Origin: a virus
DNA length: 36,511 nucleotides
Direction: 5' to 3' (one strand)
IMG/VR virus record: IMGVR_UViG_3300017613_003519
Span: 1 to 36,511 of that record
This document shows positions 1 through 36,511 of this stretch, piece by piece. Numbering within the stretch: the first letter of the stretch is position 1; each line of letters opens with the position of its first letter. Position numbers and translations under genes: made by a program. The notes beneath the pieces were generated by a model. It made no database searches. It worked only from the letters and a program-made list of their open reading frames with translations, and was not told where the DNA came from.

Positions 1-121
1 AAAAAGGGCCAACAGCCTGACCGGGTTAGAGTCAATAAGGATGGAACTGTTATTGTATTGTTTGATTCGATGGTGGAAGCATACCAAGCTTTGCAATCAA
101 CCCAACTCGCCAAGGAGTTAC
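1..121. repeat. Left copy of 121-bp terminal direct repeat (circularisation overlap)
   Basis: The first 121 bases are identical to the last 121 bases of the window. A gene reads without interruption across the join when the two copies are merged, so this is best read as the end overlap of a circular assembly and not as two genomic copies. The overlap could also reflect a circularly permuted or terminally redundant phage chromosome. Confidence 0.95.
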
Positions 122-452: not shown

Positions 453-840
453 TGACTTTCTTGGGGTGAAAACCTATTGGTTCAAGCTGCCCATGCCCCC
501 ATCAGCCAACAGGCTTTGGCGAAACAGAAAGGGTCAAAACAAACCCCACCTGAACCCCAAGTATGTCAACTGGCAAAAGGAAGCCTTCCACATGATGCCC
601 AGGGTGAATGGGGAAAATGCAAACAGATGGGAAGTTGATGTCCGGTTCCATTGGTATTATGTCAATGAAACCAGCAATGCTGACCTGGACAACAGGCTGA
701 AACCCCTGGTGGATTTGATCAAAGCCAAGTCAGGAATTGATGACCGTTTTTTGACCAGGGCAAAGGTTGAAAAAATAAACCATAAGGTGCCCAAGCAAAG
801 AAAAGATCATTGGTGTGAAGTATTCCTGACCCTGATTTAA
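424..840 (+). CDS. rusA: RusA-family Holliday junction resolvase
   Basis: The 138-residue product matches RusA endonucleases in length and motifs. An N-terminal LPMPPSANRLWR segment (about residues 22-33) is followed by NADLDNRLKPLVD (86-97) and a GIDD pair (104-107). In E. coli RusA the catalytic aspartates are D70, D72 and D91; the equivalents here would be D87, D89 and D106 or D107. RusA dimers bind four-way junctions and cut them symmetrically, so this enzyme probably resolves recombination or replication intermediates before packaging. ATG at 424 is preceded by GGAAATGG, a weak ribosome site, and overlaps the small membrane gene. It is the last gene of the rightward arm, and its TAA shares TTAA with the stop of the converging gene. 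Confidence 0.9.
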   Translation: MSLLIQKAIDDFLGVKTYWFKLPMPPSANRLWRNRKGQNKPHLNPKYVNWQKEAFHMMPRVNGENANRWEVDVRFHWYYVNETSNADLDNRLKPLVDLIKAKSGIDDRFLTRAKVEKINHKVPKQRKDHWCEVFLTLI

Positions 841-1292
841 CGCCTTGACCTTCCACGCCAATACTTTGCCCTTTGCCTGTGAAGCCTGACCTGGTCCTTC
901 AATTCCAAGTTTCTATGAACCAAATGGGCTGAAACTTCATTCAAGCACTGCCAGGAAACATCCTTCCCCCCAGGTCCCCAGTGATTCAAATAATGAACTG
1001 ATTCATGTCGGATGTCTGATTTTCGGTAAGGGTTATAATGAATAATTATTCGGCGTTCTAGCCTGGGTCTTTTGGTTTTCCAGTCAATGGATTTGTCCGG
1101 GTTAAAAAATGGATAAGGGGCATCCAAGTTGTAACCACATTTTTCCTGGGTTTCCTTGGGCAAGTCATTTAAGGTCCAAACAACTTGGGTGTAGTAATGC
1201 CTTTCATGGTTATATCGAAGCCAATGACAACCAGAAACGGCCAAAGAACTAAGGACAAATAAGCAAATCATCCCCTTTTTCAAGGCATTCAT
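837..1292 (-). CDS. Lipoprotein with HExxH (gluzincin-like) motif
   Basis: The open frame extends to 1367, but ATG at 1292 is preferred because the 151-residue product then begins with a proper lipoprotein signal: basic MNALKKG, a hydrophobic core and the lipobox VSGC with Cys22. The mature part carries HESVH (His96, Glu97, His100) and, 19 residues on, Glu119 in NEVSAH. This is the HExxH plus downstream Glu arrangement of zinc gluzincins, with a basic Arg-rich C-terminus. It is the last gene of the late arm and overlaps the upstream membrane gene by 44 nt out of frame, an architecture like Rz/Rz1 spanins. It could be an outer-spanin analogue, a murein- or protein-cutting lysis factor, or a lysogenic-type surface protein. 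Catalysis is inferred from motif only. Confidence 0.7.
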   Translation of the reverse strand: MNALKKGMICLFVLSSLAVSGCHWLRYNHERHYYTQVVWTLNDLPKETQEKCGYNLDAPYPFFNPDKSIDWKTKRPRLERRIIIHYNPYRKSDIRHESVHYLNHWGPGGKDVSWQCLNEVSAHLVHRNLELKDQVRLHRQRAKYWRGRSRR

Positions 1293-1497
1293 CCAAATCA
1301 GCCTGGATATATTTTTTATCTTGAACACATTTAACATGATCTGCCTTGCATTGTTCATAAGCAGCATGATATAAAATTGCTTCCTTTTCCCCTAAATAAA
1401 CAGACCGGACACATCCACTGTAAACCATCATTAAAAGAATAATAACAAGGGCAATTAAAATGCCCATAATTCCATAAAAAATGCTGTTATTTTCCAT
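1249..1497 (-). CDS. Small inner-membrane protein, possible inner-spanin analogue
   Basis: The 82-residue protein has a short polar N-terminus, one long hydrophobic segment (about residues 8-27, rich in Ile, Leu and Met) and a C-terminal domain of about 50 residues. That domain has a helical, charged character and several cysteines (in QC, KC, EC and IC contexts). The layout of an N-terminal anchor plus periplasmic helix, partly overlapping an out-of-frame lipoprotein gene, recalls Rz (inner spanin). No sequence family is recognised, however, and the soluble part is shorter than in Rz. ATG at 1497 lies inside the end of the upstream mini-gene, so translation is probably coupled. Cysteines could form disulfides in the periplasm. 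Confidence 0.65.
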   Translation of the reverse strand: MENNSIFYGIMGILIALVIILLMMVYSGCVRSVYLGEKEAILYHAAYEQCKADHVKCVQDKKYIQADLDECLEKGDDLLICP

Positions 1498-1654
1498 TTT
1501 TTTCCCGTTTTTTTCTGTATCTTTTCACAAACTTCTTCCATTGCTTTTCCGAACTAATCCTGTCTTGTTCCCTTCTTTCCTTTGGCGTAATGGGCAGCTT
1601 CTTCCAAACTTCTTCCAGCAGACTAAATAAGGGGCCAAGAAATGTGATTGCCAT
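1487..1654 (-). CDS. Small basic protein with amphipathic N-terminus, 55 aa
   Basis: ATG at 1654 follows GGGGAATAAAA, a good ribosome-binding site, just 2 nt after the stop of the distal fibre gene; its stop overlaps the start of the next gene by 11 nt. The 55-residue product begins with a mostly hydrophobic stretch of about 15 residues (MAITFLGPLFSLLEE) and continues as a strongly charged, Lys/Arg-rich helix up to the end. It might be a membrane-active lysis accessory such as an antiholin or a pore-forming peptide, given the neighbouring membrane protein and lipoprotein. The hydrophobic stretch is too short for a confident transmembrane call. Family unknown. Confidence 0.6.
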   Translation of the reverse strand: MAITFLGPLFSLLEEVWKKLPITPKERREQDRISSEKQWKKFVKRYRKKREKNGK

Positions 1655-2908: not shown

Positions 2909-3526
2909 CTATGGCGTAGAAATTCCTGTTTTAACTTCAATCCGTTCAAGCCTGGCCCTGGTCCGGTCATTGGTCAAAGTCATTTCCCGTTTTATGGCTG
3001 CATCCAAAATTCTCATTTCTGTTTGAACTTTTTCATCCAACCCGGTAATTTTTTCAGTTTGCTCGGATAAAGCATCAAAAATTCTGGTGAATCTTTCTTC
3101 ATGCCTTGCATCATTTAAAACGCTGGTGTCATGGGAAGTGTCTTCAATATGATAAGCCAAGTTATGCCTGACATTTACAATTTCATTTTCCAAAGGACCC
3201 AGGGCCACCTTTTGTGACATTGTTACCAAAGCCCCCATGACCACAAAAAGGGAAACAATCAAAGCCCCAAACTGAAGCCATAACTTTTTATCCGGTCTTG
3301 TTGTATCAAAAATGGTTCTTATTTGTGCATCAAGGTGCTCTGTTAAACGGTCAATCTTCTTTGTTGTTGTCAGGGCCAGGGTTTCAATTTTACGGTCAGT
3401 TGCCTGGGCAAGTTCTTTAAGTTCCCTGCTAAAACCTTCCCTGTCTTTTCTGCTTTCTTCAGTCCAGGATTCAAAAAAATTCATCATATAAGCATCAGAT
3501 TTGCGCCGTTCTTTCTGTGGTGTCAT
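2909..3526 (-). CDS. Coiled-coil protein with central transmembrane helix
   Basis: The 205-residue protein has a charged N-terminal coiled coil (about residues 10-80, rich in Glu, Lys, Arg and Thr). One hydrophobic helix follows at about residues 83-103 (LWLQFGALIVSLFVVMGALV). A second long charged helical region (about 110-200) then carries DARHEERFTRIF and heptad-like spacing. The topology resembles phage membrane proteins that span the inner membrane and reach the periplasm, such as inner spanins or holin-associated proteins, but no family is recognised. It starts with ATG after AGGAT, directly downstream of an intrinsic terminator, so its expression may depend on read-through or a local promoter. 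Confidence 0.7.
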   Translation of the reverse strand: MTPQKERRKSDAYMMNFFESWTEESRKDREGFSRELKELAQATDRKIETLALTTTKKIDRLTEHLDAQIRTIFDTTRPDKKLWLQFGALIVSLFVVMGALVTMSQKVALGPLENEIVNVRHNLAYHIEDTSHDTSVLNDARHEERFTRIFDALSEQTEKITGLDEKVQTEMRILDAAIKREMTLTNDRTRARLERIEVKTGISTP

Positions 3527-3613: not shown

Positions 3614-3790
3614 CTATTGCAATTTAGTCAGTTTATGTGCAACCCCAATTCCTGCCAGCATCAAGCAAAAATCAAAAGCCACCTTATAATAAACTTCCCC
3701 GGCAAATTCAGGAAAAACAGCCCCCAAACCGCCCAGGATAAACATTCCCGCAAAACCAAAATAACTTTTATATCCGTTTAATTTCTTCAT
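3614..3790 (-). CDS. Two-helix small membrane protein, holin candidate, 58 aa
   Basis: ATG at 3790 has a strong ribosome site (AAGGGGGA, about 4 nt upstream). The 58-residue product has a basic start (MKKLNGYKSY), a first hydrophobic helix at about residues 11-26, a short acidic turn with EFAGEVYYK, a second hydrophobic helix at about 36-51, and a basic end (HKLTKLQ). Two transmembrane helices with both ends basic and a size under 70 residues are typical of class II-like holins and related small phage membrane proteins. It lies directly upstream of an intrinsic terminator at the end of the structural run. The only murein-hydrolase-like gene is at the far end of the late arm. Holin function is inferred from topology, not homology. 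Confidence 0.6.
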   Translation of the reverse strand: MKKLNGYKSYFGFAGMFILGGLGAVFPEFAGEVYYKVAFDFCLMLAGIGVAHKLTKLQ

Positions 3791-29719: not shown

Positions 29720-30184
29720 TTAAAGTGTTATAAATGCACAATTCGGCATTTTGACTAACACTTCGCCAAGATGTTTCTTTGATGGAAGGCTGATATGAAC
29801 AAAAGATGGGGTGTCATCATCTGCATAATATAAAATCAACTGCCCAAAGGTTTTGGGTCTTTTATCTTTGATCCAGTCAAAAGCATCCCGGGTCAGGAAT
29901 TTATGGCCAATCACCTTGAAGTCACAGGCTGCACTCTCCTGCTTAAACAGGTGGTCACTGGTCCTGGCTCCCCCCACCAGCTTGTTCAAGGGTCTGGATC
30001 TTTTTCCCGATGTGATCAGAACTGGCCAATTAAGCTTGGTTCTTAGGGGTTGGAGAAACAACCTGCAAAGGTAGAAGATTTTAATACAATCTGTTTTGGA
30101 AAAGGTGATTTCCCTGGCCAGATTGGGAAATTCATCAGAAACCCCGAATTCAGTCAGGTCAAAATTTTCGGTAATATCGCCCAA
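29720..30184 (-). CDS. Peptidase M15-like murein hydrolase, endolysin candidate
   Basis: The 154-residue protein has the signature of M15 zinc D,D-/L,D-peptidases. SGKRSRPLNKLVGGARTSDH (about 58-77) continues to ACDF, matching S-x-H plus a zinc Asp, here with a three-residue insertion between His and Asp. FGQLILYY follows, then FVHISL with the third zinc His. The enzyme should cut peptide crosslinks or stems in peptidoglycan and is the only murein-hydrolase candidate seen. No signal peptide is visible, so export would need a holin or entry with the virion. The start must be TTG at 30184: an in-frame stop lies two codons upstream, and AAGAGAA precedes it. It overlaps the upstream gene by 26 nt. 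Confidence 0.8.
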   Translation of the reverse strand: MGDITENFDLTEFGVSDEFPNLAREITFSKTDCIKIFYLCRLFLQPLRTKLNWPVLITSGKRSRPLNKLVGGARTSDHLFKQESAACDFKVIGHKFLTRDAFDWIKDKRPKTFGQLILYYADDDTPSFVHISLPSKKHLGEVLVKMPNCAFITL

Positions 30185-30627: not shown

Positions 30628-31428
30628 ATGGCTGAAGTTGTAAATGTTCTTTCTTTGGGGGCTGGTGTTCAGTCATCTGCCCTGCTTTTGATGTTCCATC
30701 ATGGGGAAATCACCCCACCCCTTGACTTTGCGGTTTTTGCCGATACCCAATGTGAACCAGCCTACGTTTATGAATGGCTTGCCAACCTAAAGGCAATTGT
30801 TGAACCCAAAATCCCCATCCTAATTGGAACTAGGGGAAACCTGGCTGATGACTTCCTAAATTCACCCACTAAGACAAACTACCTTCCAATCCCTTTATGG
30901 GGGGTCAAAGATGATGATGGGGGCAAAGGCTTGGGCCATAGACAATGCACAAAGGAATATAAGATTGAAGTTGTGCAAAAAGTTATCCGACAAAAACTTG
31001 GCTATAAGCCTGGGCAATGGATGAAGCATGAAATTCATCTGAATATCGGCATATCCATTGATGAAGCCACCAGAATGCGCATGAGCAGGTTCCACAACCA
31101 AATGAATGTCTACCCATTGATTGAAGCCAGCACATCCAGGCATGGCTGCAGGGAATACATTAAAAGCCTAAATATCGGCACCCCACCCCGATCAGCCTGC
31201 TGGCTTTGCCCATTTAGGTCCAATCAGGAATGGCTGGATATGAAACAAAATGATCCTGAATCTTTTCAAAAGGCTGTTAAATGGGATGAAAGAATAAGGC
31301 ACCATCAAAAGGGGGTGACAAAATTTGTCCATTCTGAATATGTCCCCCTGTCAGATGCCAACCTTGAAGATGATTCCAGCCAATTAGACCTATTCCAAAA
31401 CGATTGCCAGGGAATGTGCGGGGTATAA
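30628..31428 (+). CDS. PP-loop ATPase, PAPS-reductase-like
   Basis: The 266-residue protein has the PP-loop LSLGAGVQSSALLL (about 8-21), a variant of the SGGxDS loop of nucleotide alpha-hydrolases, and DFAVFADTQCEPAYVYEWL (33-51). It also has RQCTKEYKIEVV (105-116) and a C-terminal CWLCPFRSNQEW (191-202). Its cysteines (C42, C107, C174, C191, C194, C260, C264) could bind an iron-sulfur cluster, as in some PAPS-reductase and tRNA-thiolation enzymes. The family activates a substrate with ATP or uses PAPS. In a phage it may change nucleotides or tRNA, reduce sulfur, or counter host defence; the substrate is unknown. It is the first gene of the rightward arm and is sealed by its own terminator. 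Confidence 0.75.
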   Translation: MAEVVNVLSLGAGVQSSALLLMFHHGEITPPLDFAVFADTQCEPAYVYEWLANLKAIVEPKIPILIGTRGNLADDFLNSPTKTNYLPIPLWGVKDDDGGKGLGHRQCTKEYKIEVVQKVIRQKLGYKPGQWMKHEIHLNIGISIDEATRMRMSRFHNQMNVYPLIEASTSRHGCREYIKSLNIGTPPRSACWLCPFRSNQEWLDMKQNDPESFQKAVKWDERIRHHQKGVTKFVHSEYVPLSDANLEDDSSQLDLFQNDCQGMCGV

Positions 31429-34619: not shown

Positions 34620-34852
34620 TGGCAAAAAAAGTATTCGATTATTCCACCCAGGGGGACATCATCATTGAAGAACCCCGGTGCTGGTTCCACCCAGTCACCC
34701 CTGTTGAAGTTGCGATTGCCCAAAAAGAATCCCCCTATATGTCTTATGATGAAATTTTGGATGAAGAAGCATTTGATGAAGCCTGGGCCAATAAACCAAT
34801 CACCAAAGGGAAAAAGGATGTGCCCCTTTGGAAATTAAGGGAAAAAGAATGA
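34619..34852 (+). CDS. Hypothetical acidic protein, 77 aa
   Basis: ATG shares one base with the preceding stop (TAATG), so translation is coupled to the zinc-ribbon protein. The protein has DIIIEEPRCWFHPVTPVEVA, then an acidic SYDEILDEEAFDEAWANKP and a basic tail. A partner or regulator of the upstream protein is possible. No known motif. Confidence 0.6.
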   Translation: MAKKVFDYSTQGDIIIEEPRCWFHPVTPVEVAIAQKESPYMSYDEILDEEAFDEAWANKPITKGKKDVPLWKLREKE

Positions 34853-35397
34853 CCATTCAAGAATCAATTGAACAAGCAAAGAAACTGATTAAAACAGTCA
34901 ACGGGGATGGGCTTTGGGATCAGCACCTAGCCTTCCTGCCCCATGTTCGGTTCAAGCTGAAAAGGAAGTTCTTTGACTTCTTCCCCACCCATACCACCAC
35001 CTGGGCACCAGACAGGATTGATCTTTCCCATAATTGGCTTGACTGGAAATATGAAAAACGCCCAGGGCAATGGGAACCCAATGTTTCAGGACATGGAAGT
35101 GTCCTGCTGCATGAATTACGCCATGCCATTCAAAGGGCTGGCTTCCCCAACAAACTTTATTCCACTAAATATGTGTTTCACCATTCCTTCAGGTTTTGGC
35201 TTGAACAGGAAGCATACAGAGAAAATTTGGTTTTCAGAATCCGATTAGGCCAAGTTAAAATGCACAACCTTTTTAATTATATTCAGGTTCTTTGTGCCAG
35301 AAATATTGATGGCCATTTTCTGCCCAAGAAATACTGGCAGACCTGCCATGATGACCTTCTGGTTGTGGCTAACAAGGAAATGAAAAATGATCACTGA
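34849..35397 (+). CDS. HExxH (gluzincin-like) protein, 182 aa
   Basis: ATG at 34849 overlaps the upstream stop (ATGA) with AAGGGAAAAAG before it, and is preferred over TTG at 34828. The protein has HGSVLLHELRHAIQRAGF with H88, E89 and H92, then FWLEQEAYRENL with E119 or E121, a zinc gluzincin pattern. The N-terminal WDQHLAFLPHVRFKLKRKFF and IDLSHNWLDW segments are otherwise unfamiliar. No signal peptide is present, so it acts in the cytoplasm, on a host or phage target. It is unlike the HExxH lipoprotein at 837-1292 in the rest of its sequence. Confidence 0.65.
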   Translation: MTIQESIEQAKKLIKTVNGDGLWDQHLAFLPHVRFKLKRKFFDFFPTHTTTWAPDRIDLSHNWLDWKYEKRPGQWEPNVSGHGSVLLHELRHAIQRAGFPNKLYSTKYVFHHSFRFWLEQEAYRENLVFRIRLGQVKMHNLFNYIQVLCARNIDGHFLPKKYWQTCHDDLLVVANKEMKNDH

Positions 35398-36163: not shown

Positions 36164-36392
36164 AAATAATGAAGAACTGAAAAAGATGGGGTTTTATATT
36201 ATCAATGATAAGGCAAGAATTATGTTGCCAACAGGGTTCTTTGCTACAGGACCAGACCGCCTACGCGCCGGGGTGGAAGCAGCTAAGTATTTTATAAACC
36301 GCCCACCGCAAACAGAGATAGCAGAAGCACTAAAAGATTACCACGAAGCAATCTCAAACCTGAAAATTTTCCTGGGGGTGGTGGATGAGTAA
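36156..36392 (+). CDS. Hypothetical protein, 78 aa
   Basis: The product begins MPKNNEELKKMGFYIINDKAR and has a short LPTGFFATGPDRLRAGVEAAKYFI part and a helical end (EIAEALKDYHEAISNLKIFL). It overlaps the nuclease by 8 nt and the next gene by 8 nt, so all are coupled. Its DNA has many CG pairs compared with the rest of the genome, as has the gene that spans the join. Function unknown. Confidence 0.65.
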   Translation: MPKNNEELKKMGFYIINDKARIMLPTGFFATGPDRLRAGVEAAKYFINRPPQTEIAEALKDYHEAISNLKIFLGVVDE

Positions 36393-36511
36393 AAAGGGCC
36401 AACAGCCTGACCGGGTTAGAGTCAATAAGGATGGAACTGTTATTGTATTGTTTGATTCGATGGTGGAAGCATACCAAGCTTTGCAATCAACCCAACTCGC
36501 CAAGGAGTTAC
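36385..36511 (+). CDS. 5' part of the junction-spanning gene
   Basis: ATG at 36385 (GGATGAG) starts a protein with MSKKGQQPDRVRVNKDG that continues in frame into the left end (from base 1 after 36390) and stops at 327. Together the product has 110 residues. The part beyond 36390 is repeated sequence. See the entry for 1-327. Confidence 0.85.
   Translation, partial: MSKKGQQPDRVRVNKDGTVIVLFDSMVEAYQALQSTQLAKEL
36391..36511. repeat. Right copy of the 121-bp terminal direct repeat
   Basis: Identical to bases 1-121. Removing one copy gives a 36,390-bp circle in which the gene starting at 36385 is intact. Confidence 0.95.

Follow-up and report, generated by a model that had tools for sequence, protein, structure and literature searches.

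Does the gene trio at the end of this phage's late operon encode a spanin-like lysis complex, and could the outer-membrane lipoprotein of that complex also be a zinc peptidase? The question was raised by a sequence-only reading of the DNA, in which the last two of three successively overlapping genes were likened to an Rz/Rz1 pair and the lipoprotein was seen to carry HESVH and a downstream Glu, as in gluzincins. The window, by which we mean the whole stretch of DNA that was analysed (36,511 nt), bears the same 121-bp repeat at both ends and is thus a complete, circularly permuted assembly of a genome of 36,390 bp; the completeness entry is absent from its database row despite this repeat. TerL, portal, and M15 endolysin genes are present, and the late operon begins with the endolysin gene and ends with the trio, which lies behind tail-fibre-like genes, leaving about 28 kb between the endolysin gene and the lipoprotein pair within the operon. 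A weak holin candidate, a 58-aa hydrophobic protein that returned no match in the family search, is encoded upstream of the trio, and the complementary early strand holds a PAPS-reductase-like gene (30628-31428, +; phrog_424). Relatives of the phage include a Silvanigrella phage (portal identity about 28%) and a Proteobacteria MAG contig, which point to a host that is probably Gram-negative.

Table 1. Coordinates of the features discussed, in the window unless a related locus is named
Feature	Location	Strand	Basis or remark
Source genome	IMGVR_UViG_3300017613_003519, 1-36,511		virus record in IMG/VR
Direct terminal repeat, 121 bp	1..121	+	exact match to 36391-36511
55-aa basic protein P0003	1487..1654	-	ORF
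82-aa membrane protein P0002, candidate i-spanin	1249..1497	-	ORF, coding score 0.32
151-aa lipoprotein P0001, candidate o-spanin with gluzincin-like motif	837..1292	-	signal, lipobox, motif
P0002/P0001 out-of-frame overlap, 44 nt	1249..1292	-	+1 frame
Lipobox V19-S-G-C22 of P0001	1227..1238	-	sequence
HESVH of P0001 (H96, E97, H100; residues 96-100), putative zinc-binding/catalytic motif	993..1007	-	sequence
E119 of P0001, candidate third zinc ligand, in NEVSAH	936..938	-	sequence
Peptidase M15 endolysin	29720..30184	-	family match; late operon start
58-aa hydrophobic protein, weak holin candidate	3614..3790	-	sequence only; upstream, same late operon
Members of alignment A6 in related phages	L042:4692-5132; L021:4967-5410; L036:5131-5580; L073:3728-4168		plus 19 others

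The successive out-of-frame overlaps described in the earlier reading are present on the minus strand, with 11 nt shared by P0003 and P0002 (1487-1497) and 44 nt shared by P0002 and P0001, whose start is offset by 205 nt from that of P0002 (205 mod 3 = 1) and which is thereby read in the +1 frame. Only two bases separate the start of P0003 from the end of the preceding gene at 1657, and the end of P0001 abuts a convergent RusA gene at 840, so that there is no spare room around the trio. The longest open reading frame containing P0001 starts at 1367; the KK n-region and the lipobox arise from the start at 1292, which the earlier reading had used. Codon usage was good for P0002 (0.32) and neutral for P0001 (0.02, compared with 0.04 for the neighbouring RusA gene).

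P0001 combines the KK n-region with the lipobox VSGC22, found at the place given for it previously, and a basic mature part of 130 aa. Under the Lol +2 rule the residue after the lipoprotein Cys governs sorting, and the His directly after Cys22 leads us to expect that P0001 is sorted to the outer membrane. Whether the search rules were strict or relaxed, it was the sole credible lipoprotein of the complete genome, the other candidates being antisense to larger genes or poor, and hence it is also the sole o-spanin candidate. P0002 has a strong N-terminal hydrophobic segment (residues 6-25) and a short, Cys-rich outer part of about 54 residues with an acidic tail; its N-terminus is acidic with no basic residue before the anchor, and an N-in topology is not assured. 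Together the two proteins comprise 233 aa, about 184 residues of which (about 54 + 130) would be periplasmic, inside the published range of 62-300 for the combined periplasmic length of two-component spanins (PMC6139136). Because a survey of 677 phages with Gram-negative hosts found a spanin in 586 of them (PMC6139136) and P0001 is the only credible lipoprotein, the pair is the best spanin candidate by elimination. The part of the proposed Rz/Rz1 likeness that holds up is anatomical, and it is strengthened by the sole credible lipoprotein of a complete genome, the +1 overlap, and the protein lengths; the N-terminus and outer part of P0002 fit it less well.

The closest architectural parallels are the overlapped two-component spanins of P2 (LysB/LysC), T5, and Jersey (PMC6139136), in which, as here, late genes encode an N-terminally anchored membrane protein and then an outer-membrane lipoprotein that overlaps it out of frame, with total and periplasmic lengths in a range that accommodates P0002 and P0001. 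The position of the pair behind the tail-fibre region also recalls T7, where the spanin genes lie behind the tail fibre. Unlike those systems, P0001 has a zinc-peptidase motif in its mature part, the pair has no sequence match to them, the endolysin gene of the window is not adjacent, and P0002 is short and Cys-rich. Pairs of overlapping transmembrane and lipobox genes are rare: a scan of the window together with 1.9 Mb of DNA from related phages returned four matches, namely this pair, one plausible pair (L120), and two without a convincing lipoprotein; the simple rule used recovers lambda Rz/Rz1 and misses those of T7 and P2, and its sensitivity is accordingly limited. A 205-aa protein of the late operon (2909-3526, -), in which a central transmembrane segment separates two halves resembling coiled coils, presents itself as an alternative partner for the lipoprotein.

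This anatomy, and the standing of P0001 as the only credible lipoprotein, would also be accounted for by the main rival to a peptidase, an ordinary overlapped two-component spanin with P0002 as i-spanin and P0001 as o-spanin, in which HESVH and E119 are coincidental and non-catalytic. The composition of P0001 lends itself to such a coincidence, as the protein contains 10 His and HExxH arose in 2.7% of 400,000 shuffles of its sequence. The full motif is harder to obtain by chance. HESVH and E119 are present at the residues named earlier, and E119 lies exactly 18 residues past H100, which is the HExxH-x18-E spacing of M1 gluzincins (PMC2241622); this arrangement appeared in 0.1% of the shuffles and HExxH-x(15-25)-ExxA in 0.034%. 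Across all 51 proteins of the window, HExxH-x18-E was expected 0.0125 times and observed once, and HExxH-x(15-26)-ExxA was expected 0.01 times and observed twice. The likeness to gluzincins claimed for the motif thus extends to its exact spacing and, judged from the sequence, is more than chance would give. The second protein matching the looser pattern is an unrelated early protein (34828-35397, +), a peptidase-like protein of 189 aa with HELRH-x26-ExxA, no visible signal peptide, and no family match; it was considered as a relative of P0001 and rejected, comparison having revealed no similarity.

Small gluzincins of the minigluzincin type are known (e.g., jannalysin/selecase). P0001, a candidate gluzincin by its sequence, resembles them in having its Glu at exactly 18 residues, within NExxA, and differs in being a lipid-anchored protein of only about 130 aa that lacks a family or structure match. 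Metzincins place a third His six or seven residues past HExxH (HExxHxxGxxH or HExxHx6H); P0001 has none at that position, the residues following H100 being YLNHWGP. An AlphaFold model from the single sequence had a pLDDT of 43 and was uninformative on the zinc site; it had no match among PDB structures at Z >= 2, and at this low confidence it placed a strand before HESVH and E119 on a helix. That no usable model predicts a zincin fold favours the ordinary spanin, against which stand the rarity of the x18-spaced Glu followed by xxA and the mature part of P0001, which at 130 aa is long and, compared with lambda Rz1, not proline-rich. On balance we consider it somewhat unlikely that the pair is an ordinary spanin and its HExxH a coincidence.

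Homologues of P0001 were sought widely. The three proteins of the trio gave no usable match in Pfam, PHROGs, or NCBIfam, and P0001 had no Pfam match at E values up to 10, PhageMetallopep (PF18894) included. A sequence search of the PDB returned solely a chance match to neuropilin, and tblastn against 50,697 phage records and 72,556 plasmids returned nothing at E values up to 1 and one chance match at E 7. Four scans of IMG/VR, which need exact short matches or spacing and which diverged relatives would escape, yielded no viral contig for the peptide pattern of P0001, one antisense chance match for a degenerate DNA version of the zinc motif, ImmA/IrrE-like and other peptidase-like proteins that all lacked an export signal, and antisense chance matches wherever the encoded frame was readable, respectively. 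P0001 had no match in the 80 portal-related phage records, in searches run without a positive control, and in 398 bacterial genomes from the phylum of the related MAG the best E value was about 0.001 per genome, with no convincing HExxH homologue in the ten loci that were fetched.

Many of the relatives gathered by portal alignment (79 viral loci plus a single MAG contig, about 40% identity) carry exported metallopeptidases of another kind. Among them, 53 loci extend 4.5 kb or more beyond the portal gene on its upstream side, and 25 of these, about half, encode an exported HExxH protein of 143-172 aa, mostly near a convergent M15 endolysin gene. An alignment of 23 sequences (A6) shows HExxHCx5H, an invariant Met, and four invariant Cys, and 18 of the 23 match PhageMetallopep PF18894 weakly. 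The AlphaFold model of A6 (pLDDT 94) superposes on matrix metalloproteinases (MMP-11; Z 10.9, 3.4 A over 118 residues) and on snapalysin (Z 9.7), and the A6 proteins are accordingly predicted, from this model, to be membrane-anchored MMP-like metzincins; they are possibly a lysis-associated exported metalloprotease family. Two related large phages also encode exported proteins with the look, by eye, of trypsin-like serine proteases (TNxHVC, GGTG; L019:2113-2835 and L101:17124-18035), adding further secreted proteases to the group.

No A6-type gene was seen in the window, where the HExxH proteins are P0001 and the early 189-aa protein. P0001 and the A6 or PhageMetallopep proteins are alike in being small exported metallopeptidase-like proteins of related phages near lysis genes, but the latter have HExxHx6H with a Met-turn, as in metzincins, and four conserved Cys. 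P0001 was also considered as a diverged A6 metzincin and rejected as such on an hhalign probability of 0.2% and a different third ligand. The comparison suggests that an exported metallopeptidase recurs in this phage group and that P0001 takes its place with a zinc motif of another class. A precedent exists in Listeria, where a phage-derived pair of a secreted metzincin (Mtz) and a lipoprotein (Tim) raises phage lysis and virion release (PMC8235301). Mtz/Tim resembles the present case as a lysis-promoting, phage-derived exported metalloprotease with a lipoprotein, but there the host is Gram-positive, the metzincin is secreted, and the TIMP-like lipoprotein is cleaved by it, whereas in the window the motif is borne by the lipoprotein P0001 itself.

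The gluzincin-like motif, the exported peptidases near the endolysin gene in related phages, and the Mtz/Tim precedent would also suit an outer-membrane-anchored metallopeptidase that is no spanin and trims proteins of the host surface or periplasm at a late stage of infection, with P0002 either unrelated or a partner. Such trimming would remove receptors, exclude superinfecting phages, or weaken the wall, and the weak i-spanin features of P0002 agree with it. It would, however, leave a complete genome without a recognised o-spanin, although 91 of the 677 surveyed phages do lack a spanin (PMC6139136), and we regard it as distinctly unlikely.

The remaining member of the trio was also weighed as the agent of outer-membrane attack. 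P0003 (55 aa, net charge +10) has amphipathic segments and no strong transmembrane segment, and it is near in size and charge to phiKT gp28 (56 aa, +7), which we take to be a disruptin. In the family searches it matched phrog_7329 (E 0.0075), which has no assigned function. Disruptins form a further class of agents that attack the outer membrane (PMC9239132), and were P0003 one of them, the pair would have another role. Small basic phage proteins are common, though, and P0003 had no match in phage records above chance level, which makes this explanation highly improbable.

We therefore favour, tentatively and at somewhat less than an even chance, the reading in which P0001 is an outer-membrane-anchored zinc-peptidase-like lipoprotein that acts during lysis and is probably the outer partner in a spanin-like pair. 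It is supported by the complete genome with its sole credible lipoprotein, the +1 overlap, the lengths, the rare motif, the relatives' exported metallopeptidase near the M15 endolysin gene, and the Listeria precedent. It is weakened by the lack of any homologue found for P0001 and its poor model, the missing positive N-terminus and short Cys-rich outer part of P0002, the distance of the endolysin gene, the neutral codon usage of P0001, and the absence of sequence similarity between P0001 and the exported peptidase of the relatives. The mechanism that we infer, from fold and activity to complex formation, timing, and target, would run as follows. P0001 would be expressed late and lipid-anchored in the inner leaflet of the outer membrane, its periplasmic part forming a small single-domain gluzincin-type zinc peptidase in which H96, H100, and E119 would bind zinc and E97 would activate water, while P0002 would sit in the inner membrane. 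Once the M15 endolysin had opened the wall, P0002 and P0001 would disrupt the outer membrane, in doing which they would probably bridge the two membranes in the manner of a spanin, and the peptidase would cut envelope proteins or the tethers between wall and outer membrane.

No description of a spanin with a protease domain was found in the open-access literature, and the spanins known so far are considered to work non-enzymatically, by fusing membranes. The stronger proposal, that the outer-membrane subunit of this spanin is a zinc endopeptidase coupling proteolysis to membrane disruption and that phages of this group have repeatedly and independently acquired exported metalloproteases as a means of lysis, we consider unlikely. 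If true, a lipid-anchored peptidase at the spanin position would represent a third route through the outer membrane, in addition to those of spanins and disruptins, and host proteins would exist whose cleavage lysis requires, possibly where the host envelope is rich in protein or strongly tethered. With the predicted membrane-anchored MMP-like metzincins of the relatives, phage lysis by exported metalloproteases becomes a testable question.
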